This document shows positions 19,078 through 41,847 of a DNA stretch of 64,000 nucleotides, in pieces. The stretch's first letter is position 1. Every line of letters starts with the position of its first letter. The stretch lies in NCBI GenBank assembly GCA_013791905.1, contig VMSX01000016.1, forward strand, positions 1 through 64,000, given 5' to 3'. A program made the position numbers and the translations under genes. This DNA is from Rhodocyclaceae bacterium. GTDB lineage: Bacteria > Pseudomonadota > Gammaproteobacteria > Burkholderiales > Rhodocyclaceae. The notes under the pieces were generated by a model. That model was given only the letters and a program-made list of their open reading frames with translations. It had not been told where the DNA came from and made no database searches.

Positions 19078-19104
19078 GAAATGCGCCCGTAAAGGTCACA
19101 TTTC
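19078..19104. promoter_or_regulatory. Palindromic operator candidate, copy A
   Basis: GAAATGCG-N11-CACATTTC; the second arm has one mismatch to the first. It lies 31 bases before the first gene of the 19-33 kb transfer operon. Copies B (37079) and C (41821) have the same spacing and the same CCC at the start of the spacer. Confidence 0.7.
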
Positions 19105-19134
19105 GGCGACGCAAGGTGACATTCGGTCCCTACC

Positions 19135-19563
19135 ATGCGGGCCATGAATCGCTTGCCCGTTGCCATCCTGTTTGCGTCACTGTCTGTTACCGGACATGCC
19201 AGTTGCTTTGAGCAGGCCGGGGCAAGATACGGTGTCTCCCCGGTATTACTAAGCGCCATTTCACAGGTTGAGTCCAACGGGAACCCGCTTGCGAGGAATG
19301 TGAATCGCGACGGCAGCGAAGATATCGGGCACATGCAGATCAACAGTCGCTGGCTGCGCGTGCTGGCGTCTCATGGCATTGACCGTCGGGCGCTGATCGA
19401 TCCATGTCTCAACACGCATGTTGGTGCCTGGATTCTGGCGCAAAGCATCCGTGCGCATGGCTATGGCTGGGAAGCCATCGGTGCCTACAACGCCAAGAGC
19501 CCGAGCAAGCGCGTGGTCTATGCCCATCGTGTGGCAGCGGCCTTGAAGGCAAGGCGATCCTGA
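19135..19563 (+). CDS. Lytic transglycosylase of the conjugation system (LtgX/TrbN-like)
   Basis: A 142-residue secreted protein with a short signal peptide ending near GHAS. The SLT fold is clear: CFEQAGARYGVSPVLLSAISQVESNGNP contains the catalytic Glu, then DIGHMQINSRW and the AYNAKSP end. It cuts peptidoglycan to open a passage for the secretion channel. It is first in the 19-33 kb operon, as in other F-type and gonococcal-island systems. ATG 19135 and ATG 19144 are both possible; the stop overlaps the next ATG by one base. Confidence 0.9.
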   Translation: MRAMNRLPVAILFASLSVTGHASCFEQAGARYGVSPVLLSAISQVESNGNPLARNVNRDGSEDIGHMQINSRWLRVLASHGIDRRALIDPCLNTHVGAWILAQSIRAHGYGWEAIGAYNAKSPSKRVVYAHRVAAALKARRS

Positions 19564-20189
19564 TGCGCGCACTCGTTTCGATGGGAATGGTGATGGTGAT
19601 GTCCGGATGCGCCAATGTGCCTGAACTGGCCAATCACGATCCGGTTCGCCATGCCATCGGCTGGATCAATCGACAGTTTCTGGCGTGTCCTGAAACCGAA
19701 TGTCCTTCCCCCACTCGCAAGACCCTGGCGGTCGTGGATCTTCCATCTCGTCCGCAGAAAACACTGGATTCAGTCAAAGAAGTTGATGCAGTCCCCAAGG
19801 TCATACCGACCAAAGAATCGGTCGAGAAGCGCACCGTTCATTTTCAGTTTGGCAAGGCTTTGCCCACGCCGCAGGGCCTCAAAACCATTCTCGACCTGCC
19901 TCCCAATGCGAAGGCTGCGACCAGGATCGAACTCGATGGCCGGACCGACGACATCGGACCGAAAGCAGTCAACGACCGTCTGGCAAGACAACGTGCCGAG
20001 CATGTTCGTGACTGGCTGCTCAGGGAAGGAGTGAAGGCGCCCATCGTGCTGTCAGCCGAGGGAGGGTGCTGTTTTGCGGACAGCGACAAGACCGAGAGCG
20101 CACGTCAGCGCAATCGGCGCGTCGAGGTTCGTCTGGTGCATCGCGTCTTGGGACGGGATGCGGTTGGCAACAAGCAGGGAGCGCAATGA
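19563..20189 (+). CDS. OmpA-like peptidoglycan-associated lipoprotein
   Basis: A 208-residue protein. The signal peptide ends in a lipobox MSGC with Cys at residue 16. After a linker, the C-terminal OmpA/MotB domain reads VHFQFGKA, ELDGRTDDIGPKAVNDRLARQRAEHVRDWL and ESARQRNRRVEVRLV, with the Asp/Arg pair that binds diaminopimelate. It should anchor an outer-membrane complex to peptidoglycan. Between the transglycosylase and pilin genes it probably stabilises the transfer channel in the cell wall. Confidence 0.85.
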   Translation: MRALVSMGMVMVMSGCANVPELANHDPVRHAIGWINRQFLACPETECPSPTRKTLAVVDLPSRPQKTLDSVKEVDAVPKVIPTKESVEKRTVHFQFGKALPTPQGLKTILDLPPNAKAATRIELDGRTDDIGPKAVNDRLARQRAEHVRDWLLREGVKAPIVLSAEGGCCFADSDKTESARQRNRRVEVRLVHRVLGRDAVGNKQGAQ

Positions 20190-20190
20190 A

Positions 20191-20394
20191 GTGAAGTTAC
20201 CCCATACCCGCGGATTCATCCGCGACATCGCCATCGCCGGCGGCTTTATCGCCATCGGCATTCTGGCCCCGGGATCTCCGATCGAAAACGGCTTTGAAGC
20301 CCACCTTGGCGGGATTTCCGTCGGCCTGGGCCTGGGCTGGTTGATCAAGTGTTTTATTGACCTACAAGGGAGCAGTCATGCAAAACAGTCGTGA
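20191..20394 (+). CDS. Small predicted membrane protein
   Basis: A 67-residue ORF with a GTG start one base after the OmpA-like gene. It has two hydrophobic stretches (IAGGFIAIGILAPG and ISVGLGLGWLIKCF) joined by a short loop, which would make a hairpin in the inner membrane. It overlaps the start of traA by 17 bases, a sign of coupled translation. I do not recognise a family. Its fixed place before the pilin gene suggests a role in pilin insertion or assembly, but that is a guess. Confidence 0.6.
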   Translation: MKLPHTRGFIRDIAIAGGFIAIGILAPGSPIENGFEAHLGGISVGLGLGWLIKCFIDLQGSSHAKQS

Positions 20395-20671
20395 ATGGTT
20401 GCGGGCGGTATTCGCGCTCGTTCTTCTGGGTGCCGCCACCGGCGCGCTGGCCGGTACGACCGGTACCGAGTTCCAGAGTCTCTACACCTGGCTGACCGGC
20501 CTGGTGCAGGGCTATTTCGGCAAGGCGGCGGCCGTTGCCGCCATTGGTCTGGGAGCGCTGTTTTCCCTGGCACGGCTGAACCCGATCGCCATCCTTTCCG
20601 GAATCGGCTTTGCCGTCTTCCTCCAGTACGCGCCGACCATCGCGTCGGGCATCCTGACAGCAACGATCTGA
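20378..20671 (+). CDS. traA: Conjugative pilin TraA (VirB2/TrbC-like)
   Basis: A 97-residue pre-pilin. A signal sequence ends near GALAGTTG, followed by two hydrophobic segments (AAAVAAIGLGALFSL and ILSGIGFAVFLQYAP), the usual pilin hairpin. The mature form would be about 70 residues. It has a good ribosome site (AAGGGA) before ATG 20378. The neighbour order traA-L-E-K-B is the F-type order. A separate S26 peptidase (37144) of the kind that cyclises pilins is encoded in this island. Confidence 0.88.
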   Translation: MQNSREWLRAVFALVLLGAATGALAGTTGTEFQSLYTWLTGLVQGYFGKAAAVAAIGLGALFSLARLNPIAILSGIGFAVFLQYAPTIASGILTATI

Positions 20672-20678
20672 GCAAGCG

Positions 20679-20969
20679 ATGGAAGAGATCGGTTACATCC
20701 CAAAATCACTGGAAGCGCAGGAGCGCTTCCTTTGGTGGGATTTCGATCAGGCCATTCTCTTCCTGCTCGTGATGGGCATGGGCGTGGTATCGGGCGCGAT
20801 GATGGCCGGGATGATTTTTGGCGGTCTGGTGGCCTGGCAGTATGGGCGTCTCAAAACTGGCAAGCATCCCAAATTCGCGCTGCACGCGTTGTACTGGTGG
20901 CTGCCGAGCTGGATCGTGATCCGGGCACGGACCACGCCACCCTCCCATTGCCACTTCTTCCTGGGCTGA
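20679..20969 (+). CDS. traL: F-type transfer protein TraL
   Basis: A 96-residue inner-membrane protein. The soluble N-terminus (IPKSLEAQERFLWWDFDQA) is typical of TraL/VirB3-like proteins. A long hydrophobic hairpin follows (FLLVMGMGVVSGAMMAGMIF) with a basic end HALYWWLPSW. TraL helps pilin assembly at the inner membrane. It follows traA by 7 bases and precedes traE by 3. Confidence 0.88.
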   Translation: MEEIGYIPKSLEAQERFLWWDFDQAILFLLVMGMGVVSGAMMAGMIFGGLVAWQYGRLKTGKHPKFALHALYWWLPSWIVIRARTTPPSHCHFFLG

Positions 20970-20972
20970 GCC

Positions 20973-21599
20973 ATGAAATTCAGTCGATTCACTGCCGATC
21001 GGGATAACCAGCGCAACGAAATCTACTTCATGCGGATTGCGGTTGGCGGTCTCGTTCTCGCCTTGCTGGCCAATGCAGGGGCCGCGCTCACCGTTGCCGG
21101 TTCGGAACGGACCATTCTGGTTCCCCCTGACATCCACACGTCCTTCTGGGTGAGCGGGCAGAAGGTCTCTACCGAATACTTGCAGGAGATGGCCTATTGG
21201 TATGCGGGACTGGCGCTGAACATCACGCCTCACGTCGCCGACTACCAAAAGAACCAGTTTCTCAAGTATGCCGCGCCCAGCGAGTACGGCCGCTTGCAGG
21301 CCGAATTCGGGGCACGTGCCGATTTCATTCGCAAGAACAACGCCTCGACCCAGTTTTCCACACAGGCCATGACGGTCGACGAGAACGCCATGAAAGTGGC
21401 GCTCTCCGGCGTGCTGCAAACCTGGGTCAGCGACAAGAAGGCTGCCGAAAAGCAGACCGCCTATGTCGTCGGCTTTCGCTATCTCAACGGGAGACTCCAT
21501 GTATCCGAGTTCAAGGAAACCAGCGATCAGGATCCATTCGGTGCTGCCAGCAGCGCTGCAATGCCTGTGGCGACTGGTGGCGCTGCTATTCCTCGGTAG
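20973..21599 (+). CDS. traE: F-type transfer protein TraE
   Basis: A 208-residue protein with a single N-terminal membrane anchor (IAVGGLVLALLANAGAALTV) and a periplasmic VirB8-like domain. Family traits are ERTILVPPDI, WVSGQKVSTEYLQEMAYWYAGLALNITP and a C-terminal YLNGRLHVSEFKE. It is a core scaffold of the inner-membrane part of the channel. Its end overlaps the signal peptide region of traK by about 100 bases in another frame, larger than usual. Confidence 0.9.
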   Translation: MKFSRFTADRDNQRNEIYFMRIAVGGLVLALLANAGAALTVAGSERTILVPPDIHTSFWVSGQKVSTEYLQEMAYWYAGLALNITPHVADYQKNQFLKYAAPSEYGRLQAEFGARADFIRKNNASTQFSTQAMTVDENAMKVALSGVLQTWVSDKKAAEKQTAYVVGFRYLNGRLHVSEFKETSDQDPFGAASSAAMPVATGGAAIPR

Positions 21600-22254
21600 C
21601 GCAAGCACTGTCATCGCTGGTCAGTATCTGGAAGGCAGTCCGGACGATGGGCTGACCGCCACGATTTCGCGTGGCGAACCCAGCCTGATCCGCATCGAGG
21701 GTCGCAAGATTCGCCGGATTCAGGGTGTCGAGGGCGAATTCCAGGTCAATCCCGACAAGGAAACCGGCGTGGCCTACCTGAAGCCGGTCACCGACAAGCC
21801 GATGATCAGCCTGTTTGTCGCCGACGATGCCGGTCGGCATTGGAAGCTCAACCTGAAGATTGAGGATGTTCCGGCCGAAACGGTGGTCATCCGTGACCGC
21901 AGCCGCTTGCGTCAGGAGGCCGTGGCCAATGGGGTCGATGAGCCGCGCAATACAGCGATTCGGCGTGTCCTGCTTGCGCTCTCGCGTGATGCCGAACCGG
22001 AAGACATGGTGGTGCGTGATCGTCTGGAGATCGTGCCGCTGTGGAATGAAGCCCGGTTCGTGTTGGTGCGCACGCTGGAGGGTTCCTTGGTCGGAGAGAA
22101 GTACCAATTGACCAACGTTTCAAAAACACGGATGGTCATCGACGAACGCGAACTCTATCGCCGCGGCGTGTTGGCGGTCATGATCGAAGCGCTGGAGCTG
22201 GAACCCGGTGAGGCGACCCAGGTGTTTGTGGTGCTGGAGGGGCGTGATGGCTGA
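21499..22254 (+). CDS. traK: Secretin-like core protein TraK
   Basis: A 251-residue periplasmic protein. The signal peptide (LWRLVALLFLGSASTVIAG) is followed by a beta-rich domain with ISRGEPSLIRIEGRKIRRI and VNPDKETGVAYLKP, as in TraK/VirB9. The outer-membrane core ring is built from TraK, TraB and TraV. I chose ATG 21499 because GGGAG lies 6 bases upstream; this makes the long overlap with traE. Its end overlaps traB by 8 bases. Confidence 0.88.
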   Translation: MYPSSRKPAIRIHSVLPAALQCLWRLVALLFLGSASTVIAGQYLEGSPDDGLTATISRGEPSLIRIEGRKIRRIQGVEGEFQVNPDKETGVAYLKPVTDKPMISLFVADDAGRHWKLNLKIEDVPAETVVIRDRSRLRQEAVANGVDEPRNTAIRRVLLALSRDAEPEDMVVRDRLEIVPLWNEARFVLVRTLEGSLVGEKYQLTNVSKTRMVIDERELYRRGVLAVMIEALELEPGEATQVFVVLEGRDG

Positions 22255-23536
22255 GCCAGCGACCTCGCGCGTGTCGGGCGCCATCGCCCGGCTGTCGCCC
22301 AAGCATCGCCAGTACCTGATTCTCGGTCTGGGCGTGTCCAGCTTCATGTTGCTGGTGTTTGGCGGCGTAGCCATCTGGGACAAGCCGGTACAACTACCGC
22401 AAGGCGCCGTTCAATCCCGGCCGCAACCGATGCCGATCAACGCGCCCGGTGCTCAGGCCGATCCCCGTGACATCTGGATGAGCAAGAGTGCCGAGCAGAT
22501 GCGGCAGATGGAGGACATGATCCAGGGATTGCGGCAACAGGTAGATACGCTGGACAAGAAGCCGGCGACGACGATACCGCCAGCGCTGTCTCTACCTTTG
22601 CCGCCAGCACCGATGCCACCTCTGGCCGCACCGGGCGCCATGCCGTCAGTGATCTTGCCACCTCCACCCGGACATCCGCCGGCCGCCGGCCTGCCGAATC
22701 GGAAGCCTGGGGAGTTGGACGTTGCCATGGACACTGCAAATCCTCCACGGCCACCCGGCATCGCCTCGTTCGAGGTCAGCGATGCTCGCTTGGCCGTACC
22801 GAGTCAAGGCGCCAAGTCCGACCCGAAAAAGGAGGTACGCAGTTATGTCCCCTCGGGATCGTTCTTCCGTGCGGCCTTGCTCGGTGGCCTTGATGCGCCG
22901 ACCGGCGGTCAAGCGCAAAGCAATCCCCATCCGGTGCTCATGCGGGTGCAGGACAACGCCTTCCTCCCCAATCGCTACCGTTTCCAGATCAAGGAATGTC
23001 ACGCGCTGGGGGCCAGTCACGGCGATATCAGTTCAGAACGAGCCTATATCCGGCTTGAATCGCTCTCGTGTGTCCGGCATGACGGTCGGGCGATCGATGT
23101 GCCGGTCAAAGGCTATGTGGTTGGCGAGGATGGCAAGGCCGGCATGCGCGGGCGTCTGGTCAGCAAGCAGGGACAGGTCCTGGCCAATGCGCTGGTGTCA
23201 GGCATCGGTGCCGGTATCGGTCAGGCGGTCCAGCAGAGTGCGACGACTTATTCAACGAGTCCCCTCGGCACCATCGGAACCGTCGATACCGGCAAGCAAT
23301 TGCAGGCTGGTATCGGTACCGGTGTGGGCAAGGCGCTTGATCGCCTGTCCCAGTACTACATCACGCTGGCCGAGAAGATGTTTCCGATCATCGAGGTCGA
23401 TGCCGGACGCACCGTGGATGTGGTGTTCACCAAAGGCTTCTCGCTGGAGACCGAAGGTACCAGCGGAACGCCCGATACCTACACCGACATCTGGCGCCGG
23501 GGGCGCGAGGTCCAGAAGAAGCCCCTGGAACCCTGA
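22247..23536 (+). CDS. traB: Channel core protein TraB
   Basis: A 429-residue VirB10-like protein. One N-terminal membrane segment (YLILGLGVSSFMLLVFGGVAIW) is followed by a coiled coil (EQMRQMEDMIQGLRQQVD), a long Pro-rich spacer (about residues 105-180) that spans the periplasm, and the C-terminal TrbI/VirB10 domain (PVLMRVQDNAFLPNRYRF, GYVVGEDGKAGMRGRLVSK, VDVVFTKGF). It links inner and outer membranes and senses ATPase state in related systems. ATG 22247 is the best start; it overlaps traK. Confidence 0.92.
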   Translation: MAEPATSRVSGAIARLSPKHRQYLILGLGVSSFMLLVFGGVAIWDKPVQLPQGAVQSRPQPMPINAPGAQADPRDIWMSKSAEQMRQMEDMIQGLRQQVDTLDKKPATTIPPALSLPLPPAPMPPLAAPGAMPSVILPPPPGHPPAAGLPNRKPGELDVAMDTANPPRPPGIASFEVSDARLAVPSQGAKSDPKKEVRSYVPSGSFFRAALLGGLDAPTGGQAQSNPHPVLMRVQDNAFLPNRYRFQIKECHALGASHGDISSERAYIRLESLSCVRHDGRAIDVPVKGYVVGEDGKAGMRGRLVSKQGQVLANALVSGIGAGIGQAVQQSATTYSTSPLGTIGTVDTGKQLQAGIGTGVGKALDRLSQYYITLAEKMFPIIEVDAGRTVDVVFTKGFSLETEGTSGTPDTYTDIWRRGREVQKKPLEP

Positions 23537-23595
23537 TCCAACATCGCCCGACACAACCCAACACTATTTCTACCGAATTCAGACAGGAGTCTTCG

Positions 23596-24330
23596 ATGTT
23601 CGCTACTTACCGTCCCATGGCCACCGCTGCACTGCTGGCTACCCTCTGCCTTGCAACGTCCGTCACCCGCGCGGCGGATGAAGCGGCCGATGCCCTGGCA
23701 AGCAAGCTGAAAGACCTGTATCCGGCCACCAAGATCGAACGCGTGCAGCGTTCCGAACTACCGGGCCTTTTCGAGGTCGTGATGGGAAGGAATGCCGCTT
23801 ATACCGACAGTACCGGGCGTTACTTCATCTTCGGCCACCTGTTCGACATGAAGGAGCAACGTGATCTGACGGCGGAACGTGTCGAGAAGGCAGCGCGGAT
23901 CGCATTCGATACCCTGCCGCTGGCCGATGCAATCAAAACGGTACGCGGCAAGGGCGAGCGGGTGATTGCGGTGTTCTCTGATCCGGATTGCCCATTCTGC
24001 CGGCGGCTGGAATCCGAGCTGGACAAGCTCGACAACGTGACGCTCTACACCTTCCTCTATCCACTGGAAGGCCTGCACCCGGAAGCGAAGGGTAAGGCGG
24101 TCGCGGTCTGGTGCGCCAAGGATCGCTCTGGCGCCTGGAGCGAATTGATGCGCTCTGGCAAAGTACCCACCAAAGTCTCCTGCGACAACCCGATCGAACG
24201 CACTATCCAGTTGGGCCAGCGGCTGTCCATCCAGGGAACGCCTACCATGATTTCGAGTGACGGCCGCTTGCTGCCCGGCGCCGCGCCGCGTGAGCGTATC
24301 GAGCAATGGCTGGCGGAGGCGGCACGATGA
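23596..24330 (+). CDS. dsbC: DsbC-type thiol:disulfide isomerase of the transfer system
   Basis: A 244-residue periplasmic protein with a clear signal peptide ending at TRAAD. An N-terminal dimerisation domain precedes a thioredoxin fold with CPFC at residues 132-135, in FSDPDCPFCRRLESEL, and the cis-Pro region QGTPTMIS. DsbC-type enzymes refold misoxidised proteins. The transfer proteins of this island (TraU, TraN, TraH and the Cys-rich gene at 44206) have many cysteines, so this gene fits its place. It overlaps traV by ATGA. Confidence 0.9.
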   Translation: MFATYRPMATAALLATLCLATSVTRAADEAADALASKLKDLYPATKIERVQRSELPGLFEVVMGRNAAYTDSTGRYFIFGHLFDMKEQRDLTAERVEKAARIAFDTLPLADAIKTVRGKGERVIAVFSDPDCPFCRRLESELDKLDNVTLYTFLYPLEGLHPEAKGKAVAVWCAKDRSGAWSELMRSGKVPTKVSCDNPIERTIQLGQRLSIQGTPTMISSDGRLLPGAAPRERIEQWLAEAAR

Positions 24331-24908
24331 AGGCCACGCTGTTCCGCTTGCTGCCCCTCGCATTGGCGCTCACGGGTTGTTCCAGCCTGATGACCGGTCT
24401 GGACGGGCAGGGGGGCTTCTCCTGCAAAGCGCCCGATGGCATTTCCTGCGCATCGCTTTCCGGTGTCTATGCGAATGCCGTCCAGAACAACCTCCCCGGA
24501 CAACGTCCGCAGACCACCGCCAGCAAGTCTCTCGACGGCGGGCAAGTATCGGCACGGCTGACGAAGAACAGCCTGCAAGCCGGCGACCCGCTGCGCAGCG
24601 CACAAAAAGTTCGTCGTGTCTGGCTGGCACCCTGGGAAGACGAGGATGAAATCCTCCATGACCAGTCCTATTTCTACATGGTGGTCGATACCGGCCGCTG
24701 GCAGATCGAGCATTCCCGCCGTCAGGCGACGGAACGCTATCGACCGGTCATGGCGCCAAAGGCCTTTGCCCCACAGGCACCCGAAGCCGGGGAACGCCAG
24801 TCGTTGCAGATGGACCGGGTATCTCCGGTACTGCCGTCACAGTCCGCATCGCCTTTGCTCACGCCACAGTCACGTCCGGCGGGTGGCACGGCTGGAGTGC
24901 TGGAGTAA
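24327..24908 (+). CDS. traV: Channel lipoprotein TraV
   Basis: A 193-residue lipoprotein with lipobox ALTGC (Cys at residue 18). Family marks are FSCKAPDGISCASLSGVYANA near the N-terminus, with paired cysteines, and the RVWLAPWEDEDEILHDQSYFYMVVD stretch. It forms the outer-membrane cap with TraK and TraB. ATG 24327 overlaps the upstream stop; the last base of the stop is the first base of traC. The C-terminal 50 residues are low-complexity Pro/Ser. Confidence 0.88.
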   Translation: MKATLFRLLPLALALTGCSSLMTGLDGQGGFSCKAPDGISCASLSGVYANAVQNNLPGQRPQTTASKSLDGGQVSARLTKNSLQAGDPLRSAQKVRRVWLAPWEDEDEILHDQSYFYMVVDTGRWQIEHSRRQATERYRPVMAPKAFAPQAPEAGERQSLQMDRVSPVLPSQSASPLLTPQSRPAGGTAGVLE

Positions 24909-27484
24909 TGGGGTTCGCCGAAATACTCCGGGAGGCATTCCTGCCAGAACGGAATGCCGAGGCGGATCGCTTGCCGCGGCAACTGTTGCGGGAAATCGCC
25001 CAGATGCCTCGTCTGACCGGCATCCTGCCATATCTGGCCTGGCAGGAGGATGCCCGCCTGTTTGCGCTGGATCAGGGTGGCTTCGGCGAACGGGAAGAAC
25101 ACGCCATCGGCTTTTGCATCGAGACCCTGCCGCAAACCGGCGCCAACGACGAAATGGAAAAGGTGCTGGCCAGTCTCTTCGTGTCGTGTCCGCCCGGTAC
25201 CGGAATCCAGGTGTCGCTCTACGGCAGTCCGCATATCCTGCCGACGCTACGCGAGCAGGCCAATCTGCTGCCGGCCTCCTCACAGGACGAGGAAGATGGA
25301 TCGATCCAGCGCCGTCACGACAATATCTATCGCCATCTCGCCCGTCGACGGATCGATCACTATCTGAAGGGCACCAGCGGATCGATCTTCGGCCATCAGA
25401 CGTATCTGCTACGGGATTTCCGGTCGATCATTTCGGTGGTACTGCCCCTCGATCCTGAGTTACCGGCCGATGTCGATGAAGCCTTACGCATCAGGGAAAG
25501 TATCCATGCGACGCTCAAATCGGCGCATCTGCCGGGTCGTGACTGGGGGCCGGATCAGCTGATCAATTTTGTGGCCGATTTCTTCGACCACTCACGATTG
25601 TTCGGCGGTGGCAAGGCCGAATCTCTGACCTGGAACGCCGAGTTGCCATTGCGCAGCCAGCTATCCAACCTCGAGATCGCGTCGCGCGTCGGTGACGGCG
25701 ACATCCGGTTTCGCAAGGCCGGTGGCGAGGAGTCGGTGCTGCAACTGTTTTCCGTACGCCAGTATCCGCGCTACTTTCGTCTCTCGGGCATGAACTACCT
25801 GATCGGCGATCCGTATCAACTGGCCCTGTCGATGCCGTGCCCCTTCCTCATCACCATGGGCGCCGTGGCGCTCGACTACGAATCCGCCCGAACGCGGGCC
25901 CAGATGAAAGCGGCCCGGGCTACCCAGAGCGCCGGTTCCTACCTCGCGCATTTCCAGCCGGATCTACAGGAGCGCAAGCGTGACTGGGACATGGTGCTGA
26001 AAGCGTTTGACAGTGGCCGCACCGTCGTCGGCATGTACCACCAGGTCTGCCTCCTGTCGCGGGTGGAGGATGCTTCGCGTAGCGAGCATTCGGTCCGTGC
26101 CGTATGGCGAGCGCGTGGCTTCGATCTGACCAAGGACTTCTATCTCCAGCATCAGGCCTTGGCAGCGACCTTGCCGATGACCCTGACACCGTCTCTCCAG
26201 GGAGATTTGAAACAGTTCGGACGCATCAGTACCAAGACCGCCGACAACGCGGTGATGACTTCGCCGCTGATCGCTGAATGGAAGGGGACGAAAACGCCGG
26301 TGATGACCCTGTTTGGTCGGCGTGGGCAAATTATCGGCTTCGACCTGTTCGACAACACGGGGGGTAATTTCAACTTTGCGGTTGCGGCGCTCTCCGGTTC
26401 AGGCAAGTCGGTGTTCGTCAACGAAATGACCTACCGATACCTGGGTGCTGGAGCCAAGGTCTGGATCATCGACGTCGGCCGTTCCTACAAGAACCTATGC
26501 GAGCTGATTGATGGCGAGTTCATCGAATTCTCTGATGAGCGGCAGAACACCATCTGTCTCAATCCCTTCTCCATGATCATCGACATCAATGCCGACATGG
26601 AAATGGTGTTGCCCTTGCTGGCGCAAATGGCGAGTCCGCGCGAGTCGCTCGACAACTACAGCTATACCGCCCTGGGGTCGGCCATCAAACGTGTCTGGGA
26701 TGCCAAGGGCAGGGCGGCCACCATCACGGATATCTACGAACTGCTGCAAACCGGACGTCTGTCGAATGAAGGCGAGTATGAACGGGATCTCAGCCGGCTG
26801 GCGACGGCCTTGGAGCCCTATACCCGCCACGGTGTCTATGCCAGCTACTTCGAAGGCGAGGCGAACATCCAGTTCGACAAGGATTTCGTCGTTCTGGAGC
26901 TGGAAGAACTCAAGTCGAAGAAGGACCTTCAATCCGTCGTCATGCAGCTCATCATGTACCGGATCACCCAGGAGATGTACCGGGATCGTTCGCGGCGCAA
27001 GCTGGTGATCATCGACGAGAGCTGGGATCTGATGGGAACGGGTGCCAGCGGCGGATTCATCGAGGCCGGCTATCGGCGGGCACGGAAATACGGCGGTTCG
27101 TTCGGCACGATCACCCAGTCGGTCGACGATTACTACAAGAACGAGGCGACCAAGGCGGCCATCAACAATGCCGACTGGCTGTTTCTGCTGCGCCAGAAAC
27201 CGGAAAACATCGAGCGTCTCGGCAAGGAAGGCAAGCTGTCCCTCGACGAGTGGCTCAAGCGGCAACTCGGGTCGGTGAGTACCGAGCATGGCTACTACTC
27301 GGAAATCTATATTCATTCGCCGATGGGTTCCGGCCTGGGACGCCTGATCCTCGATCCCTTCTCGATGCTGACCTACTCGACACGCGCCGAGGACTATGAG
27401 GCCATCAAGCGGCTTCGCGAGCAAGGCGTCAGTGTGGCCGATGCCATCGAGCAACTGGTCGCCCAGCGGGAGTCACGCACATGA
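24908..27484 (+). CDS. traC: Conjugation ATPase TraC (VirB4-like)
   Basis: An 858-residue ATPase of normal family length. Walker A is in LSGSGKSVFVNEM near residues 495-507, Walker B in RKLVIIDESWDLM near residue 700, and the C-terminal Gln/Arg finger regions (ITQSVDDYYKN, LLRQKPENI) follow. The N-terminal half is the TraC/VirB4 domain. It powers pilus assembly and substrate movement at the cytoplasmic face of the inner membrane. It overlaps trbI by ATGA. Confidence 0.95.
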   Translation: MGFAEILREAFLPERNAEADRLPRQLLREIAQMPRLTGILPYLAWQEDARLFALDQGGFGEREEHAIGFCIETLPQTGANDEMEKVLASLFVSCPPGTGIQVSLYGSPHILPTLREQANLLPASSQDEEDGSIQRRHDNIYRHLARRRIDHYLKGTSGSIFGHQTYLLRDFRSIISVVLPLDPELPADVDEALRIRESIHATLKSAHLPGRDWGPDQLINFVADFFDHSRLFGGGKAESLTWNAELPLRSQLSNLEIASRVGDGDIRFRKAGGEESVLQLFSVRQYPRYFRLSGMNYLIGDPYQLALSMPCPFLITMGAVALDYESARTRAQMKAARATQSAGSYLAHFQPDLQERKRDWDMVLKAFDSGRTVVGMYHQVCLLSRVEDASRSEHSVRAVWRARGFDLTKDFYLQHQALAATLPMTLTPSLQGDLKQFGRISTKTADNAVMTSPLIAEWKGTKTPVMTLFGRRGQIIGFDLFDNTGGNFNFAVAALSGSGKSVFVNEMTYRYLGAGAKVWIIDVGRSYKNLCELIDGEFIEFSDERQNTICLNPFSMIIDINADMEMVLPLLAQMASPRESLDNYSYTALGSAIKRVWDAKGRAATITDIYELLQTGRLSNEGEYERDLSRLATALEPYTRHGVYASYFEGEANIQFDKDFVVLELEELKSKKDLQSVVMQLIMYRITQEMYRDRSRRKLVIIDESWDLMGTGASGGFIEAGYRRARKYGGSFGTITQSVDDYYKNEATKAAINNADWLFLLRQKPENIERLGKEGKLSLDEWLKRQLGSVSTEHGYYSEIYIHSPMGSGLGRLILDPFSMLTYSTRAEDYEAIKRLREQGVSVADAIEQLVAQRESRT

Positions 27485-27879
27485 CCACCTGGAAAGCGCA
27501 CGTGGCCGCCGGCGTCCTGACACTTGCCGCGGGAAGCATTGCACTGGCTTTGTGGTGGGGCGTTGAACGGGAGCGATCCCCGCGACTGGGGCGGGTCGAT
27601 ATTGGTCAGATTGTGGCCAAACAGCAGAAATCCTTGGTGGAACGCGTGAAACCCGGTATCGATGCACAGGAACAGGGCCGGATTTTTGAGGAGGCCAAGG
27701 CCTTCGGGAATCGCCTGGATGCAGCGCTCGAACAGGCCAGTCGCGAGTGTGGATGCGCCCTGATGAATTCGGCGGCGTTGCTGAAGGCTGCCCATGCCGC
27801 TATTCCCGATCTCACCGAAAGGGTCGAAGCGCTGGCGAGCAGCCCGGCCCCGGCTTCCCCGGCATCCTCGGGGCGATGA
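27481..27879 (+). CDS. trbI: F-type protein TrbI
   Basis: A 132-residue protein with an N-terminal membrane helix (VLTLAAGSIALALWW), a VDIGQIVAKQQKS segment typical of F TrbI, and a helical periplasmic tail with a CGCAL motif. F TrbI affects pilus outgrowth and retraction. It lies directly after traC, as in F and in the gonococcal island. The Ala/Pro-rich C-terminus is not conserved. Confidence 0.82.
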   Translation: MTTWKAHVAAGVLTLAAGSIALALWWGVERERSPRLGRVDIGQIVAKQQKSLVERVKPGIDAQEQGRIFEEAKAFGNRLDAALEQASRECGCALMNSAALLKAAHAAIPDLTERVEALASSPAPASPASSGR

Positions 27880-27885
27880 CGTTTC

Positions 27886-28668
27886 ATGCGACATATCGCG
27901 GCCATGGCGCTGATGACAACTTTACCGGCCTGGGGGCAAACCGGACTCGACTACCCGTCGTCGTGGCAATGTGGCGAGGCGCGCTTCCACTGGTATTGCG
28001 ACCTCAGTGTCGATGAACCGCTGGAGCCTCCTCCCGCGAAACCGAGCAAGGAAAATCCTGAAGGCGAACAGGCGGTCGAGGATATGAAAAAGCTTCGCGA
28101 GTCGGTGGAGCAGAAGAGGGCACTGGCGATTCTCAAGCCCACCCAGGAGAACCTCAAGTCCTACATCGTTGCCCAGGAAGCATTGATGGACCGTGCGTCG
28201 GTGTTTTCCGATGTGTGGCGGAGGGTCATCTGGGCCAATCCCGATCTCAACTACCAGCTGCGCAATCCTTCCAACAACGCCGCTATCCAGGTCAGGGACA
28301 GCGACCGGGCACGCAAGGAAACGCAGACCTTGTCTGCCATTGCCAAGGAATGGGGACTGTTCTTCATCTTTCGATCGGACTGTCCGTATTGCCATCGCCT
28401 GGCGCCGACACTCAAGTACCTGTCGGAGCAGTTTGGCCTGACCGTGTTCCCCGTTTCCCTTGATGGCGGCGGTTTGCCAGAGTTTCCTCAGCCGGCCAGG
28501 GACAACGGCATGTCGGCAGCGCTGGGCGTGAGCGTCGTCCCCATGGTGGTACTCGGCAACGTCAAAGATCGTCGCCTTATCCCGGTGGGTTCGGGTGTGC
28601 TGTCCGCGCAGGACATCGTCGAACGGATTTACGTTCTGACGCAAACCAAGCCGGGTGAGTTGTATTGA
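27886..28668 (+). CDS. traF: F-type pilus assembly protein TraF (thioredoxin-like)
   Basis: A 260-residue periplasmic protein. A short signal peptide ends near PAWGQ, an N-terminal part has WQCGEARFHWYCD, and a thioredoxin fold has CPYC at residues 166-169 (FIFRSDCPYCHRLAP). Unlike F plasmid TraF, which lacks the CxxC, this one keeps it, as in several ICE-type systems. It probably makes disulfides in other Tra proteins. It is distinct from the S26 peptidase also called TraF at 37144. Confidence 0.9.
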   Translation: MRHIAAMALMTTLPAWGQTGLDYPSSWQCGEARFHWYCDLSVDEPLEPPPAKPSKENPEGEQAVEDMKKLRESVEQKRALAILKPTQENLKSYIVAQEALMDRASVFSDVWRRVIWANPDLNYQLRNPSNNAAIQVRDSDRARKETQTLSAIAKEWGLFFIFRSDCPYCHRLAPTLKYLSEQFGLTVFPVSLDGGGLPEFPQPARDNGMSAALGVSVVPMVVLGNVKDRRLIPVGSGVLSAQDIVERIYVLTQTKPGELY

Positions 28669-28679
28669 AGGAGAGTTGC

Positions 28680-30101: not shown

Positions 30102-30104
30102 GCC

Positions 30105-33452: not shown

Positions 33453-33454
33453 CG

Positions 33455-34783: not shown

Positions 34784-34838
34784 CCGGCTGGGGGATTGAT
34801 GAAAGGATTGCCATCGGTCCAGGCATTGCGTAAACCGT

Positions 34839-35459: not shown

Positions 35460-35512
35460 GTTTCAAAATCTCACTGACGTTTCATGCGAACATGCCAGAG
35501 CCTTCTGGTCAA

Positions 35513-35542
35513 GAGAAATGCTATTCAGAGAAATGCTATTCA
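35513..35542. repeat. Tandem 15-bp direct repeat upstream of the AbiEi-like gene
   Basis: GAGAAATGCTATTCA occurs twice without a gap (35513-35527 and 35528-35542), 54 bases upstream of the AbiEi-like start. It could be an autoregulatory site or a recent duplication. Confidence 0.6.
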
Positions 35543-35633
35543 GATTGCAATCCAACTCTCGCCGCCGCAGGGATTTTCCGTGGCAGCGATGTTCTTGATC
35601 GACCATATCGAATGTAATCGGAGGCGAAGTGGA

Positions 35634-36152: not shown

Positions 36153-36432
36153 CGTCCCGTTTGGCATCCTGGTAGTGTTGCAAAGCCGCCTTCAACTTGG
36201 CATTCGGTGGCGGCGGATTTTCCAATGCCTGAATGAACATCTCGGCATCACGGGCGGACAGACGTATCACCCGCTCCTGTTCAATGATGCGCTCGGCTTC
36301 GCGCAAAGCCGTTTGGACCATGAATTGATTGACGGTAGCACCGACCATCGCGGCAGCCAGTTCAAGTGTTTCTTGCACCTGTACCGGAACCCGGGCGGAA
36401 ACCCTTCCCCGTTCGACAGCTGTAGCAGTCAT
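36106..36432 (-). CDS. tacA: DUF1778/RHH antitoxin (TacA-like)
   Basis: A 108-residue protein. The N-terminal ribbon-helix-helix (RVSARVPVQVQETLELAAAMVGATVNQFMVQTALREAERII) binds DNA as a dimer; the C-terminal segment (FIQALENPPPP, KAALQHYQDA) is the toxin-binding part typical of DUF1778 antitoxins. AGGAG lies 8 bases before the ATG. A perfect palindrome 39 bases upstream is its likely operator. It neutralises the acetyltransferase toxin encoded next to it. Confidence 0.88.
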   Translation of the reverse strand: MTATAVERGRVSARVPVQVQETLELAAAMVGATVNQFMVQTALREAERIIEQERVIRLSARDAEMFIQALENPPPPNAKLKAALQHYQDAKRDDEGTSFSWQPRPKRV

Positions 36433-37078: not shown

Positions 37079-37105
37079 GAAATGCGCCCGGAACGTCCGC
37101 ATTTC
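37079..37105. promoter_or_regulatory. Palindromic operator candidate, copy B
   Basis: GAAATGCG-N11-CGCATTTC with perfect arms, 38 bases before the S26 peptidase ATG (37144). It is also 94 bases upstream of the divergent YbjQ-like gene. Same motif as 19078 and 41821. Confidence 0.75.
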
Positions 37106-37143
37106 GAAATTCTGAAGTGACCCGGACGCCATACAGTCCGTGG

Positions 37144-37626
37144 ATGAAGACATGTCTCGAATACTGGCGCCTGTGGCGTCTCCCGGTTGTTTTGTGGGCA
37201 ATGGTCGGCTACCTCGCCGTTACCAAGTCATACCTGCTGACGATCAACTTGACCGACAGTCTTCCCGGGACGATTTTTCTGATCGATAAACGGGCGTTTC
37301 CGAGTGAGGGTGAATTGCTGGCCTTCCGCTGGGCAAGTGACTGGCCTTATCCAAAGGGCAGTATCTTCGTGAAACGGCTTTCTGGCCTGCCTGGCGCTAT
37401 CGTCTCCGCTCAAGGCAGTCGGTATTTTGTCAATGGCAGGGAGATCGGCATTGCCAAGCCGCAATCGAAAACGGGCGTGGTGCTCAAGCCCGGCCCGATC
37501 GGGGCCATTCCCCCTGGCCACTATTTCGTTTCGGCGGATCATCCCGATAGCCTCGACTCGCGCTATGCCCTGACTGGCTGGGTGGCCGACGATCAAATCC
37601 TCGGGAAAGCCTCGCGAGTTTTCTGA
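37144..37626 (+). CDS. S26-family conjugative signal peptidase (RP4 TraF type)
   Basis: A 160-residue membrane peptidase. One N-terminal helix (LPVVLWAMVGYLAVTKSYLL) precedes the catalytic Ser39 in TDSLPGTIF and Lys77 in FVKRLSGLPG; HYFVSADHPDSLDSRYAL is the C-terminal S26 motif. RP4 TraF of this group cuts and cyclises the pilin TrbC. Here it could process the TraA encoded at 20378, which would make a circular pilin; that is inference. The start could also be GTG 37117. It probably forms an operon with traI, 25 bases downstream. Confidence 0.88.
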   Translation: MKTCLEYWRLWRLPVVLWAMVGYLAVTKSYLLTINLTDSLPGTIFLIDKRAFPSEGELLAFRWASDWPYPKGSIFVKRLSGLPGAIVSAQGSRYFVNGREIGIAKPQSKTGVVLKPGPIGAIPPGHYFVSADHPDSLDSRYALTGWVADDQILGKASRVF

Positions 37627-37651: not shown

Positions 37652-39715
37652 ATGTTCAAGTTCTTGAGGCGGGCAGGAGGTAAAGCGCAGGTGGAGGATG
37701 ATATTCCCGCGCCGCTACCGTTGCTGAATACTCCGGTCGATGAAGATATACCGCGCTATCCACCATTCATGAAGGGACTGCCAGCGACGGCGCCGGATCG
37801 CTTGCTGGAGACGCAGTGGGATTTGATCGGTCAGATCCAGGAATCCGGGTTGGCATCAAATGACATCTTCGAACAGTACTATCTTGCACCACTGCGAAGC
37901 CTCGCTTCCTATGTGCACCTGTTGCCGGCCAGCGAAAGCCACCATCACAGGGGGGCGGGTGGCTTGTTCAGGCATGCCGTCGAAGTGGCTCTTTGGTCCC
38001 TGCAACTGGGCGATCGAGTGTTACTGCCAGGCGACCAGGCCCCAAGACGCCGTCGCGAGATCGAGCCGCGCTGGCATGTGGCGGTCTTCCTGTCGGCACT
38101 GTGTCACGACATCGGCAAGCCGATAACGGACCTGAAAGTTACCAGCCAGGATGGCGAAAAATCCTGGAACCCGTTTGCCGAGGATCTGTATTCCTGGGCG
38201 AGTGCCAATGCCATCGACCACTACTTCCTGCACTGGCGGCCCAATCGAGGTCGCGACCATACCTCGGTGTCGATACTCCTGGCCGAAAGGATCATCGGTC
38301 GCAACACCATGGGGTGGATCTATGGCGGTGATCCAGAGTTGGTGCTGTGGATGACGGAGTCGATCGCTTGTCAGCCGAGCCAGATCAACATGATTCACAA
38401 CCTGGTGGTCCGTTCCGATCAGGTCAGCGTCGCCCGCGATATGGAAACCCTGGGTAGCGTTTTCGCGGGGTACGATATCGGCGTTCCGGTCGAACGCATG
38501 CTCCTCGACATCATGCGGCGTCTCGTGCGCGAAAGCACGTGGACGGTCAATGTGCCGGGGTCGCGACTCTGGTTCATGGAAGGCCACCTCTATCTGGTCT
38601 GGCCGATCGCTGGCGAAGAAATGGCTGCTGTCATCAATCGGGAGAAACTACCCGGACTGCCCAGGACGCCCAACAGCATCCTGGACATGCTGACAGAGCG
38701 GAAGCTGGCAGAGATCAAGGGGGATGGCAGCGGGGAAGGGCGATATTGGCAGATCGCCCCGGCACCCTTGACCGAGAAAATCCCGCACATTCGGCTGACA
38801 GCCATCCGTATATCAAAACCATCCACAGTCCTGGATCAGTTACCGGTGCCCATTGCAGGTCGATTGGTCGACGATCAAGCCTCCGCTTTCCAAAATCAGG
38901 ATCAGAATCCCAGCAAAGCATTGAACGTGGTGCCAATTCAGGTTCCTACCAATCCGGTTGCACCGGTGACTAAAGCGGTATCGACCCCGAACGCAAGTCC
39001 ATCGGTGGATACGTGGTCGAGTTTTCCGGAAGATGAACTTGGGGTGGTGCTGAGGGCGATAGCCGAGGATTTCCGGGCGGGACGGCGTGACAGGAAGAAG
39101 CTGACTTATCTTGATGAGACGGGTGTCCTGTGCCTGAAATGGCCGGACATCATCAAGGATCGAGGCATGGAGAGCCGGGCCATTCTGGATGCTCTCGGTA
39201 GTCGTGAATGGTTGGTCGTCGATCCCATGCAGCCATTCAGGCGGGTGACGGAAGTGCGTGTCGGTATCGGCGCCCCCTGGAAGGTCATTCGCGTCCCCCC
39301 TGTCCTGCGCGAGTTGCTTGGGATTTCATCAGAGCCAAGCAAGAAATTGCCAGCTGGTCAAAAAGCGGCAGCAGAAACAAAGGCGATAGTGCCTGAAGAA
39401 GGCAGTCCGAAGCTCGCGATCATGCAAAACGCGGAGCCGGACGATGCGAACGCGAAAAGGCTGATCGAAAAGAAGATGAAACTGCTGGACGAAGTCATTT
39501 CAGTCCTGATCGAGTCTGTTCGTGGCAAATCTGTTGATGCGATCGAGGAGGAGGGAGGATTGCTGATCGCCGTCAGCGATGTCGAGGCGATACTGAAGAA
39601 TCGAGTGAAAGTTTCTCGTGCTCAGATACTCGGATTACAACGGCTGAATCCTCAGCGCTTCAATACCGTTGAGCGGAATAGGATCGTTTATTTTCGGCTG
39701 TCCAATACCCTGTAG
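37652..39715 (+). CDS. traI: MobH-type conjugative relaxase TraI
   Basis: A 687-residue relaxase of the TraI_2/MobH family. LLPASESHHHRGAGGLFRHAVEVA contains the three-histidine signature, and SALCHDIGKP (H152, D153) gives the HD-type metal site, in place of the Tyr-based motif of other relaxases. The C-terminal half has two winged-helix-like parts (LAEIKGDGSGEGRYW near 350 and SREWLVVDPMQPFRRVTEVRVG near 520) after a Pro/Ser linker. It should nick oriT and lead the strand to the secretion channel. MobH relaxases occur in the gonococcal island, R391/SXT and related elements. Confidence 0.9.
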   Translation: MFKFLRRAGGKAQVEDDIPAPLPLLNTPVDEDIPRYPPFMKGLPATAPDRLLETQWDLIGQIQESGLASNDIFEQYYLAPLRSLASYVHLLPASESHHHRGAGGLFRHAVEVALWSLQLGDRVLLPGDQAPRRRREIEPRWHVAVFLSALCHDIGKPITDLKVTSQDGEKSWNPFAEDLYSWASANAIDHYFLHWRPNRGRDHTSVSILLAERIIGRNTMGWIYGGDPELVLWMTESIACQPSQINMIHNLVVRSDQVSVARDMETLGSVFAGYDIGVPVERMLLDIMRRLVRESTWTVNVPGSRLWFMEGHLYLVWPIAGEEMAAVINREKLPGLPRTPNSILDMLTERKLAEIKGDGSGEGRYWQIAPAPLTEKIPHIRLTAIRISKPSTVLDQLPVPIAGRLVDDQASAFQNQDQNPSKALNVVPIQVPTNPVAPVTKAVSTPNASPSVDTWSSFPEDELGVVLRAIAEDFRAGRRDRKKLTYLDETGVLCLKWPDIIKDRGMESRAILDALGSREWLVVDPMQPFRRVTEVRVGIGAPWKVIRVPPVLRELLGISSEPSKKLPAGQKAAAETKAIVPEEGSPKLAIMQNAEPDDANAKRLIEKKMKLLDEVISVLIESVRGKSVDAIEEEGGLLIAVSDVEAILKNRVKVSRAQILGLQRLNPQRFNTVERNRIVYFRLSNTL

Positions 39716-39797
39716 TTCGCCCCCTATAATTCCCGCCGTCGTCACGACAAACTCTTTCCAGATCCCCGGCAATGGGCAAGTGATGAGACTGGACTGT

Positions 39798-39816
39798 GAT
39801 GGACAAAAGGTCCATC
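39798..39816. other. Short inverted repeat after traI
   Basis: GATGGAC-AAAAG-GTCCATC, 7-bp stem and 5-base loop, in the 207-base gap before the next gene. No T-run follows on either strand, so it is more likely a protein site or chance than a terminator. Confidence 0.35.
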
Positions 39817-39922
39817 GATCTTCCTGTTCGGGATGTAGGATTACACACGGTACCACCAACAATTTTGCCCGGCCAGCGACTGCGACTTGATCTCGACAAT
39901 TACCGGGCGGCGCTGCGACATC

Positions 39923-40489
39923 ATGAACTACACCGACATCCTCTCATCTCTTAACCAGGCCTCTGCCTTCGATCTCTTTCGCCTGCGTGCCGCCATCGAC
40001 CGAGTCCTGGATCAGCCAGGTTGGATGGTCGCCGTGCAGGCACGATTGAGAGTTGGCATGGCCATCGAGTATTTCGACCCTCAGGCCAATCGTACCTTCA
40101 AGGGGCAACTGCTGGAAATGCGCCGCAAGCAGGCCGTCGTGCTCGATCTGGAAACCCAGAAGCGCTGGCTGATCTCGTACGCGGCGATCAACCTGGACGG
40201 TGCCGATGTCGAGATTCGCGAACAGCCGAAACAAGGTTTGAGCCGGCAATCGGTTGCCGTCGGTGACGTCGTCGGGTTTGTTGATCGCGACCACCACCAA
40301 CGCAGCGGGAAGATCCTGCGCCTCAACGACAAGACCGTCACGCTCCAGGTAGGCCATCAACAATGGCGTGTCGCCTACGCATTGTTGCACCGGGTTGTGG
40401 AATCCAGCGCCACCGACGGCAACCTTCCGGAGCTTGGCGTTTTCGAGGGCGATGCCGAAATAGTGATCGAACAGGATGACCGTGGGTAA
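39923..40489 (+). CDS. Unrecognised protein with two SH3-like repeats
   Basis: A 188-residue protein I do not recognise. The first 40 residues are helical (DILSSLNQASAFDLFRLRAAIDRVL). Two similar beta-rich segments follow: GMAIEYFDPQANRTFKGQLL...RWLISYAAIN (about residues 45-90) and GDVVGFVDRDHHQRSGKILRL...WRVAYALLHRV (about 108-155). They look like duplicated small beta barrels of the KOW/SH3 kind. ATG 39923 is used; an in-frame upstream start at 39887 is possible. Its end overlaps the next gene by 14 bases, so the two are a translational pair. Confidence 0.65.
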   Translation: MNYTDILSSLNQASAFDLFRLRAAIDRVLDQPGWMVAVQARLRVGMAIEYFDPQANRTFKGQLLEMRRKQAVVLDLETQKRWLISYAAINLDGADVEIREQPKQGLSRQSVAVGDVVGFVDRDHHQRSGKILRLNDKTVTLQVGHQQWRVAYALLHRVVESSATDGNLPELGVFEGDAEIVIEQDDRG

Positions 40490-41702
40490 AGCTGCGGTTC
40501 CTAAACACACCTGGGCGTTTGCCCCTCGGTTCCGTGCCGGCGCCTTCGGTTGGCGTTCCGAGCCCGCGATCATTCGCATCAAGGAAGTTGTGTCGGAAAT
40601 CAAGGCCGTCGCCAAGAAGGATCCGATCCTTGGCGCGGAAGGCGCGATCCTGTTCCTCCAGAAGCTTTCCGCGGCCCTTCAGAATATCGATGGTTCATCC
40701 GGGGCCATCGGCACCGCGGCCAACAGGGCCATCGAGGTGCTCGTTCCGATCATTGCCAGGGCGCCTGCCGATTCGGCCCTACGCCGCAAGTGGTTGGAAA
40801 AGCTCTACCAGGCCCACGCCGACGACCAGATTCCGTACATCGAATCCCTTGCAGATTATTGGGGCGAGCTGTGCGCCAGTCCGGAGATTGCCGCCGAATG
40901 GGCGGATCGTTTGGCGGGAACCGTCGAAACGGTTTTCCGTCGCAGCAAGGAAGAATTCGGCTATTTCCATGGGACGCCCATGGCCCTCTCGGCCCTGCTG
41001 GCCTCCGGGCAACACGAACGCCTGCTCGCCCTGATCGATCTTTACCCGCGCAAGTTCTGGTCTTACCGCAAATGGGGTGTCCAGGCCCTGGTTGCTCTGG
41101 GGCGAAAGGCCGAGGCCATCCCATACGCCGAAGAATGTCGGGGCTTGAACGAACCGTCGTGGCTGATCGCGCAGGCCTGTGAAGAGATTCTTCTTTCCTC
41201 TGGCATGGCCAACGAGGCATACGAGCGTTACGCCTTTGAAGCGAATCAGGCCGGTACCTATCTCGCGACGTTCCGCGCCATCTGCAAGAAATATCCGGAG
41301 CGGACCCCGGAATCAATCCTTGCCGATCTTGTGGATCGTACCCCTGGAGAGGAAGGCAAGTGGTTCGCCGCCGCCAAGGACGCGAAGCTGTACGAGGTGG
41401 CGCTCGATCTGGCGAGGAAGTCTACGGTCGATCACCGCACCCTGATGCGCGCGGTGGAGGATTTCGCAGAAAGCCAATCAGGGTTTGCTCTCAATTGCGG
41501 CCTGATCGCATTGCACTGGGTCTGCGCCGGCCGAGCTTACGAGGCGACCATGGGCGAGGTTCGGGCGATCTACGACGGAATTGTGAAGGCGAGCGAGATC
41601 GCGGGGTGTAGGGACGCGGCGCTGGATGCGATTAGGAAAACGCTGGCGGTGTTTCCCGAGGAAAGACTGGTCAGGGGCGCGCTGTCGAACGTGCTGGGTT
41701 GA
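40476..41702 (+). CDS. Unrecognised large alpha-helical protein
   Basis: A 408-residue protein without a signal peptide or membrane segment. Almost the whole length is predicted helical by inspection, with spaced Ala/Leu patterns (AALQNIDGSSGAIGTAANRAIEVLV, ALVALGRKAEAIPYAEECRG, CEEILLSSGMANEAYERYAFEA), as in TPR/HEAT-like solenoids. It overlaps the preceding SH3-like gene by 14 bases. The pair stands between traI and the traW cluster. A role in transfer, regulation or defence cannot be decided from sequence. Confidence 0.7.
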   Translation: MTVGKAAVPKHTWAFAPRFRAGAFGWRSEPAIIRIKEVVSEIKAVAKKDPILGAEGAILFLQKLSAALQNIDGSSGAIGTAANRAIEVLVPIIARAPADSALRRKWLEKLYQAHADDQIPYIESLADYWGELCASPEIAAEWADRLAGTVETVFRRSKEEFGYFHGTPMALSALLASGQHERLLALIDLYPRKFWSYRKWGVQALVALGRKAEAIPYAEECRGLNEPSWLIAQACEEILLSSGMANEAYERYAFEANQAGTYLATFRAICKKYPERTPESILADLVDRTPGEEGKWFAAAKDAKLYEVALDLARKSTVDHRTLMRAVEDFAESQSGFALNCGLIALHWVCAGRAYEATMGEVRAIYDGIVKASEIAGCRDAALDAIRKTLAVFPEERLVRGALSNVLG

Positions 41703-41820
41703 TCAAGCATTGTTCGCTTTTCCAAGAAACTGGCATTCAGCGCGTGAGGGTCCCGAACTGATCCAGGCCATCGAGCTTCCCGAATAAGTTCGACTTAGAT
41801 TGATGCCCCAGTGGAGCATC

Positions 41821-41847
41821 GAAATGCGCCCAAAAAGTCCGCATTTC
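41821..41847. promoter_or_regulatory. Palindromic operator candidate, copy C
   Basis: GAAATGCG-N11-CGCATTTC with perfect arms, 40 bases before the traW ATG. Same motif as at 19078 and 37079. Confidence 0.75.

Follow-up and report, generated by a model that had tools for sequence, protein, structure and literature searches.

A 64,000-nucleotide stretch of a Rhodocyclaceae bacterium genome (assembly GCA_013791905.1, contig VMSX01000016.1, positions 1 to 64,000 of the forward strand; hereafter the window) carries an F-type conjugation system whose transfer operons are each preceded by a copy of one 27-bp palindrome. We consider it highly likely that this palindrome is the binding box of a master activator of the FlhDC family, of the SetCD/AcaCD type, which is encoded by an integrative and conjugative element (ICE) and would turn on the transfer operons of that element.

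The palindrome and its copies

The box reads GAAATGCG-N11-CGCATTTC, with perfect arms at 37079-37105 and 41821-41847 and one arm mismatch at 19078-19104, and CCC begins the spacer in all three. A preliminary description of the window had given the same arms, mismatch count and spacing, and had placed each box 30-40 bases before the first gene of a transfer cluster; the gap is 38-40 nt, taking the starts at 37144, 19144 and 41888. It had also reported no fourth copy in the window, but one is present at 50568-50594 (GAAACGCGCCCTGCAAGGGCGTATTTC), with two arm mismatches. At up to three mismatches four matches lie in the window, where 0.67 would be expected, and 2 of 100 shuffled sequences have at least as many; the window evidence alone is, at this threshold, only moderately convincing.

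The search was extended to the whole genome (G000; 30 contigs, 3.64 Mb, in which C26 is the window contig and other C numbers denote the remaining contigs), allowing at most two mismatches across the 16 bases of the arms. It returned ten sites, four on C26, five on C19 and one at C25:287856, while the reversed pattern, used as a control over the same genome at the same threshold, gave none. Nine of the ten fall inside one element, described below, that occupies 110 of 3644 kb (binomial p = 2e-13, a test picked after the result was known), with no scatter at unrelated genes. The site at C25:287856 was rejected as a chance match, its core being deviant and its position lying inside three long open frames. 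The C19 copies also make visible a full form, GAAATGCGCCC-N5-GGGCGCATTTC, which is longer than the 8-bp arms and is exact at C19:49896. A half-degenerate copy with 4/22 mismatches stands at C19:57137 just beyond the integrase gene, and comparable copies occur near the integrase in two related genomes (G151 and G129).

The palindrome is thus no artefact, and its regulon extends beyond what the preliminary description saw: on C19, boxes also precede the traD, repA, mobI and ssb operons.

A probable single element across two contigs

The transfer system had been described as physically split. We rejected this as the simplest reading, given that the first 122 bp of the window are the reverse complement of the first 122 bp of C19, which puts the overlap in the right orientation, and that the gene contents of the two contigs are complementary. 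Read backwards into C26, C19 yields an ICE of ~110.3 kb. C19 supplies genes for DUF4400, a TraD-like coupling protein, RepA_C, MobI, RadC and a primase, as well as ParB_N, RecT, a PDDEXK-like protein, SSB and a tyrosine integrase beside guaA. Further support comes from the single-contig genome G069, where such an ICE lies in one piece with the same gene order and where the 18-bp repeat that links the guaA-integrase junction of C19 with window 51466-51483 is present at 1900448 and 2010551, and from the glycan-type genes found at both contig ends. C19 and C26 very probably represent a single 110-kb ICE beside guaA, and the transfer clusters several operons of it, although a repeat at the contig ends could mislead. 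The position next to guaA was seen in G000, G069 and G151; the stretches fetched for other elements did not reach guaA.

Promoter geometry

A promoter set was compiled from 56 listed sites by removing 11 without a labelled gene (leaving 45) and then 13 near-duplicates, which gave 32 promoters; orthologous promoters among these are not independent. A −10-like hexamer occupies +27 to +32 after the box, the pattern TAnnnT scoring a mean of 2.44 of 3 at +27, with the next best of 59 offsets at 1.09 of 3. The nine labelled sites of G000 alone score 20 of a possible 27, where the null mean is 5.8 and no draw in 20,000 did as well, at an offset picked beforehand by eye. No TTGACA-like run of columns was seen at the −35 position in the 32 promoters. 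The spacer is polar, with A exceeding T toward the gene in 28/32, T exceeding A in 3 and one tie. AcaCD boxes likewise have an A-rich polar spacer (PMC4207636). Columns −7, −6 and −1 and their counterparts +1, +6 and +7 are biased in mirror fashion. Dyad pairing beyond the 27 bp was considered and dropped, within-site complementary pairs being no commoner than the columns lead one to expect (position 1, 16/32 against 16.6 predicted; position 6, 16 against 17.6).

Because the spacing from box to −10 is fixed and a −35 is lacking, as at AcaCD promoters, the box is most likely a class II activator site. The earlier suggestion of a single regulator's site uniting the transfer clusters is therefore supported as regards the regulon, while the term operator gives way to activator geometry. 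A repressor such as the element's own S24-peptidase helix-turn-helix (HTH) protein might nevertheless silence the transfer operons directly from this palindrome, and operators often do look like this, as perfect dyads just upstream of promoters. We regard that as improbable: the box stops 26 bp short of the −10, adjoining the −35 position, at constant spacing; its spacer has the polarity of AcaCD boxes; and the site list has no box in the interval separating the repressor gene from the FlhD-like gene, the expected target of a SetR-type repressor.

Regulator genes and proposed mechanism

The candidate activator is encoded on C19 by overlapping FlhD-like and FlhC-like genes, which are divergent from the gene for the S24-peptidase HTH repressor, a protein of the CI/LexA type. 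The FlhC-like protein matches PF05280 at 33.9 bits (cut-off 27), and four Cys residues are kept in all of the aligned FlhC-type proteins (9/9). Profile comparison with solved structures in the PDB gave E values of 5e-9 for FlhC and 0.002 for FlhD, and the nine best Foldseek matches of the FlhD-like model in the PDB are all FlhD or FlhDC entries. Two further FlhC genes exist in G000, a flagellar one on C4, accompanied by FlhD, and one on C22.

From what can be read directly, namely the boxes, their conservation, the −10 spacing, the adjacent FlhD-like and FlhC-like genes and the divergent repressor gene, we infer binding, activation, repression, release by the SOS response and leaderless translation as follows. 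Loss of the CI/LexA-like repressor, presumably upon DNA damage (SOS), would allow the divergent FlhD-like/FlhC-like pair to be made. The pair would bind the 27-bp box and recruit RNA polymerase to promoters with a −10 starting 27 bp past the box and no recognisable −35. In the window, the transglycosylase-to-traG, S26-traI and traW-to-traN operons would be turned on; on C19, the traD, repA, mobI and ssb operons, the last probably together with exo/recT.

Comparison with known systems

To judge from its sequence, this is most likely a switch of the known SetCD/AcaCD kind with an unusual promoter layout. The element combines an FlhC homologue, an adjacent FlhD homologue (below the Pfam cut-off) and one box placed near −35 before several transfer and recombination operons. 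With AcaCD of IncA/IncC plasmids and of SGI1 it shares an FlhDC-family activator, the core GCCC-N5(A-rich)-GGGC, the missing −35 and a gene set of mobI, traD, tra and recombination genes; a matrix similarity as high as that between the box and the AcaCD motif was reached by 1 of 5000 column shuffles. At SGI1 promoters the −10 lies 22-24 bp past the AcaCD site, with no obvious −35 (PMC5058578). When the IncA plasmid pRA1 was scanned with a matrix from eight published AcaCD sites (15 hits, mean 1.8 of 3, next offset 1.47), the distance from core to −10 was 35, as against 34 here. Unlike the AcaCD site, this box is nearly symmetric, with GAAATGC arms, and unlike AcaCD carriers the element is integrated and has an S24-type repressor gene. 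It does not classify as an autonomous IncA/IncC plasmid, having an integrase beside guaA and repeats at both ends, yet a RepA_C gene is present.

The SetCD system of SXT/R391 ICEs is alike in its FlhDC-family pair, S24 (SetR) repressor, integrated state and class II promoters (PMC4344509, PMC4542580), and the FlhD/FlhC-like pair here is divergent from the S24 repressor gene as in the SXT module. The site differs: SXT/R391 elements are recognised by integration at prfC (PMC4542580), whereas this element sits beside guaA. The SetCD motif is described as strongly different from the AcaCD and FlhDC motifs (PMC4344509); in contrast to that description, our box shares the AcaCD core, the comparison being with that description of the SetCD motif.

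In Betaproteobacteria, the phn island of Delftia acidovorans Cs1-4 is an ICE reported to have LexA-like and FlhC proteins (PMC9960961). The likeness is one of description only, and the same source calls the functions of these two proteins unclear. A literature search for guaA, ICE and FlhC jointly found no paper, subscription literature being thinly covered.

Conservation in related elements

We surveyed 395 genomes of the family with the full form at up to 3/22 mismatches. At least one site occurs in 40 of them, and the control pattern in one. At least four sites are found in nine genomes, and an FlhC at least 55% identical in nine (the next being 46%); eight have both (Fisher p = 6e-15). In related elements that were fetched, sites at up to 4/22 mismatches stand before the same operons: TraW in 8/8, S26 in 7/7, the transglycosylase in 7/7 and ssb in 5/5, in line with the regulon reading of the preliminary description. 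The mobI operon has a box within 520 nt in 6/7, and in 7/7 if the G000 copy is included, which lies 0.6 kb off, ahead of the gene preceding mobI. Boxes precede repA in 5/7 and the traD operon in 4/7, rising to 7/7 each with the inclusion of weak copies at 5-7/22 mismatches, of which two belong to repA and three to traD. Identity to the window TraI falls to 50% among these elements. One relative, G129 (C1:1820001-2055000), has a pair of related transfer regions next to each other, whose boxes differ somewhat.

These distributions bear on the possibility that the host's flagellar FlhDC, instead of the element's own pair, reads the boxes. The host has a true flhDC on C4, and the arms look like the inner half of the Escherichia coli box AAATAGCG-N10-12-CGCTATTT (PMC9962212), with two inverted half-sites, AAAT and GCG, and a spacer of ~11 nt. 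The likeness to the full flagellar box, AAYGSSNNAAATAGCG-N10-12-CGCTATTTNNSSCRTT, stops at these inner arms: each arm is one base shorter, the outer AAYGSS is not seen and columns −7/−6 are mostly G. Moreover, C4 carries none of the ten genome sites, nine of which belong to the element (flagellar genes beyond flhDC were not located), and box number tracks the ICE FlhC across the 395 genomes. Control by the host FlhDC is, on this evidence, very improbable.

Several observations weigh against activation by the ICE-encoded pair. In the survey, G330 has an FlhC (56%) with one site only, and G297, which lacks a matching FlhC, has four sites, two being of different make. The site at C19:37278 lacks a counterpart among those listed for G069, G083, G148, G151 and G129. 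As to layout, a clear −10 at +27 is missing from box 4 (50568), and the −10 of the G000 traD promoter is one base closer to the box. As to the proteins, the FlhD-like match to PF05247 (20.5 bits, E 6e-4) is under the cut-off of 27, its Foldseek E values (0.3-1.7) are poor, and the FlhC-like protein likewise has a poor AlphaFold model (predicted local distance difference test score, pLDDT, 58), unsuited to a fold search. The pair is matched to the box by association. Finally, the S24 gene on C19 is followed by another HTH gene, whose product has an IrrE-like domain, which makes the identity of the repressor a guess.

Predicted leaderless starts

An ATG stands at +39 in the S26 genes (7/7), +40 in the transglycosylase genes (7/7) and +41 in the TraW genes (8/8), that is, 6-8 nt past the −10. 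An in-frame stop at +27 excludes an earlier start in 4/7 S26 genes; in the window transglycosylase, an in-frame ATG at 19135 overlaps the predicted −10. At these 22 starts, the predicted pairing with the anti-Shine-Dalgarno sequence is −0.1 to −3.1 kcal/mol, the background median being −3.1, whereas it is −6.4 to −11.7 kcal/mol for ssb (5), mobI (5) and repA (1), whose leaders extend ~70 nt or more past the predicted transcription start. The contrast is weakened by the first gene of the traD operon, which is also distant from the box and pairs at just −3.2 (2/2), and by internal genes with weak pairing (TraG −0.4 to −7.0; TraN −3.0 to −3.9). A weak Shine-Dalgarno site is no proof by itself, and the argument draws more strength from the fixed spacing.

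Given the 6-8-nt gaps and the weak pairing, we predict leaderless mRNAs for the three window operons, a layout that looks new. In pRA1, an annotated start is found within 600 nt of 13/17 predicted boxes, always at least 61 nt past the core, as against 46-48 here, and the mapped leaders of SGI1 are 22-135 nt (PMC5058578). The setR mRNA of SXT is documented as leaderless (PMC4542580); our search for leaderless mRNAs of conjugative transfer operons or of AcaCD found none in a literature whose subscription part was thinly covered. Of the long-leader promoters, those of ssb (position 19896 of the fetched stretch L006, and its orthologues) differ by at most one base over the 24 nt past the −10 in five elements, with box flanks that differ between elements and a leader of ~140 nt after the conserved 24 nt.

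The palindrome might also act as RNA, in the form of a leader hairpin or attenuator, since its best copy (C19:49896) would give an 11-bp stem with a 5-nt loop, as read from the letters. Since the conserved −10 follows the box, however, transcription from that promoter would not include the box, and Rfam at gathering thresholds gave no match in the window; we find such a role highly doubtful.

A second transfer region and a candidate island

G000 holds a second transfer region, with an FlhDC-like pair and a box of its own, and this looks new. On C22 (70001-182089) another F-type set has an FlhD-like/FlhC-like pair directly before S26-TraI, the FlhD-like protein being found by similarity to the C19 one (38%) and unmatched by the Pfam FlhD model. 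The 27-bp C22 box is GAAAAGCA-N11-TGCTTTTC; at up to two mismatches, 4/5 genome matches are on C22, with two for the reversed control. These boxes stand directly before the transglycosylase and, in weaker form, traW, ~0.5 kb ahead of a weak MobI match and ~1.8 kb ahead of TraD. TA is at +27 in 3/4, and the transglycosylase ATG at +40. On the Sulfuricystis plasmid pSTJ2 (FlhC 44% identical), GAAACAGCGCATCTCCGTGCGCTTTTC precedes S26, with TACCAT at +27 and ATG at +39. The layout thus outlives the letters. That the sites are instead a partition or silencing centromere, for example of the element's 559-aa ParB_N protein, is scarcely credible, the sites being single, before operons and in constant promoter geometry, and the second region pairing a different box with a different FlhDC-like pair.

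G381 (C1) has a tyrosine integrase gene and an AlpA-family gene, the latter with its ATG at +40 after the box GAAATGCGGCCAAAATGGGCGCATTTC; boxes lie at 12883 and 17333 of the fetched stretch, 4.4 kb apart. No FlhC was found in this genome at E 1e-10 or better, and a relaxase 30% identical is present. This is only a lead, to a possible mobilizable island using an absent helper, and resembles SGI1, where xis has a predicted AcaCD site and AcaCD triggers excision (PMC4207636).

Taken together, and tentatively, at rather less than even confidence, we propose a joint picture. Box, −10 and ATG would be locked at fixed spacing under an FlhDC-family activator, leaving three type IV secretion and relaxase operons leaderless, with long leaders and strong Shine-Dalgarno sites at ssb, repA and mobI; co-resident elements would be kept apart by their arm letters (GAAATGCG versus GAAAAGCA); and the G381 island, without a matching activator, would listen in on such an ICE.

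Gene content of the window

Features are listed in Table 1. Pfam matches in the window cover the F-type mating-pair proteins TraL, E, K, C, F, H, U, N and TrbI/TraB, plus the S26 peptidase and the TraI_2 relaxase. The TrbC match of the TraA-like pilin is below cut-off, and DsbC, TraV and TraG were named by inspection and from the annotated gene order in pSTJ2. Box 4 faces the attachment repeat (50568-51483), and in an excised circle its transcript could enter int. Between and beside the transfer operons (33120-36167 and 48330-51308) lie HipBA-like pairs, named by inspection, a GNAT protein and a ParE-type toxin. Glycan-type and methionine-salvage-like genes at 1-16500 and at C19:10700-21400, between DUF4400 and the transglycosylase, look like ICE cargo; they include a weak glycosyltransferase match, radical SAM/B12, a phosphorylase and an APS kinase, several by inspection only.

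Table 1 Boxes, predicted promoter elements and genes of the ICE in the window
Feature	Coordinates	Strand	Remarks
C26 end	1..122	.	identical to reverse complement of C19 first 122 bp; contigs probably adjoin
Box 1 (one arm mismatch)	19078..19104	+	before transglycosylase-to-traG operon; same place in 7/7 related elements having the gene
Predicted −10 TACCAT	19131..19136	+	
Lytic transglycosylase (SLT)	19144..19563	+	predicted leaderless start 19144
OmpA-like, TraA-like pilin, TraL, TraE, TraK, TraB (TrbI), DsbC, TraV, TraC, TraF, TraH, TraG	19404..32930	+	
Box 2 (perfect arms)	37079..37105	+	before S26 peptidase-TraI; 7/7 related elements
Predicted −10 TACAGT	37132..37137	+	
S26 signal peptidase	37144..37626	+	predicted leaderless start 37144
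TraI relaxase	37652..39715	+	PF07514 TraI_2; best plasmid relatives annotated MobH family
Box 3 (perfect arms)	41821..41847	+	before traW-traU-...-traN; 8/8 related elements
Predicted −10 CAGAAT	41874..41879	+	
TraW	41888..42511	+	TraW_N just under cut-off; 48% identical to annotated pSTJ2 TraW; predicted leaderless start 41888
TraU, 416-aa gene, TraN, 128-aa gene	42495..47869	+	TraU/TraN by Pfam; order conserved
Box 4, weaker (two arm mismatches)	50568..50594	+	identical in G069 and G126
18-bp repeat GGCGAACGTCCGCGAAAG	51466..51483	+	also at guaA-integrase junction C19:58928; probable attachment site, ICE right end

Implications

The work on SetCD and AcaCD that we found concerns Gammaproteobacteria; here a switch of the same kind appears in ICEs of the betaproteobacterial family Rhodocyclaceae. 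Its box, with an AcaCD-type core and arms like FlhDC half-sites, offers a natural series on the change of DNA specificity in FlhDC-family activators, one that includes two pairs with two boxes in a single genome. Leaderless transfer operons, if true, would couple transfer to translation conditions, and an island exploiting an ICE's activator is predicted as a candidate. Put more practically, the box is a simple handle for finding, in draft genomes, ICEs of this type together with their regulons.

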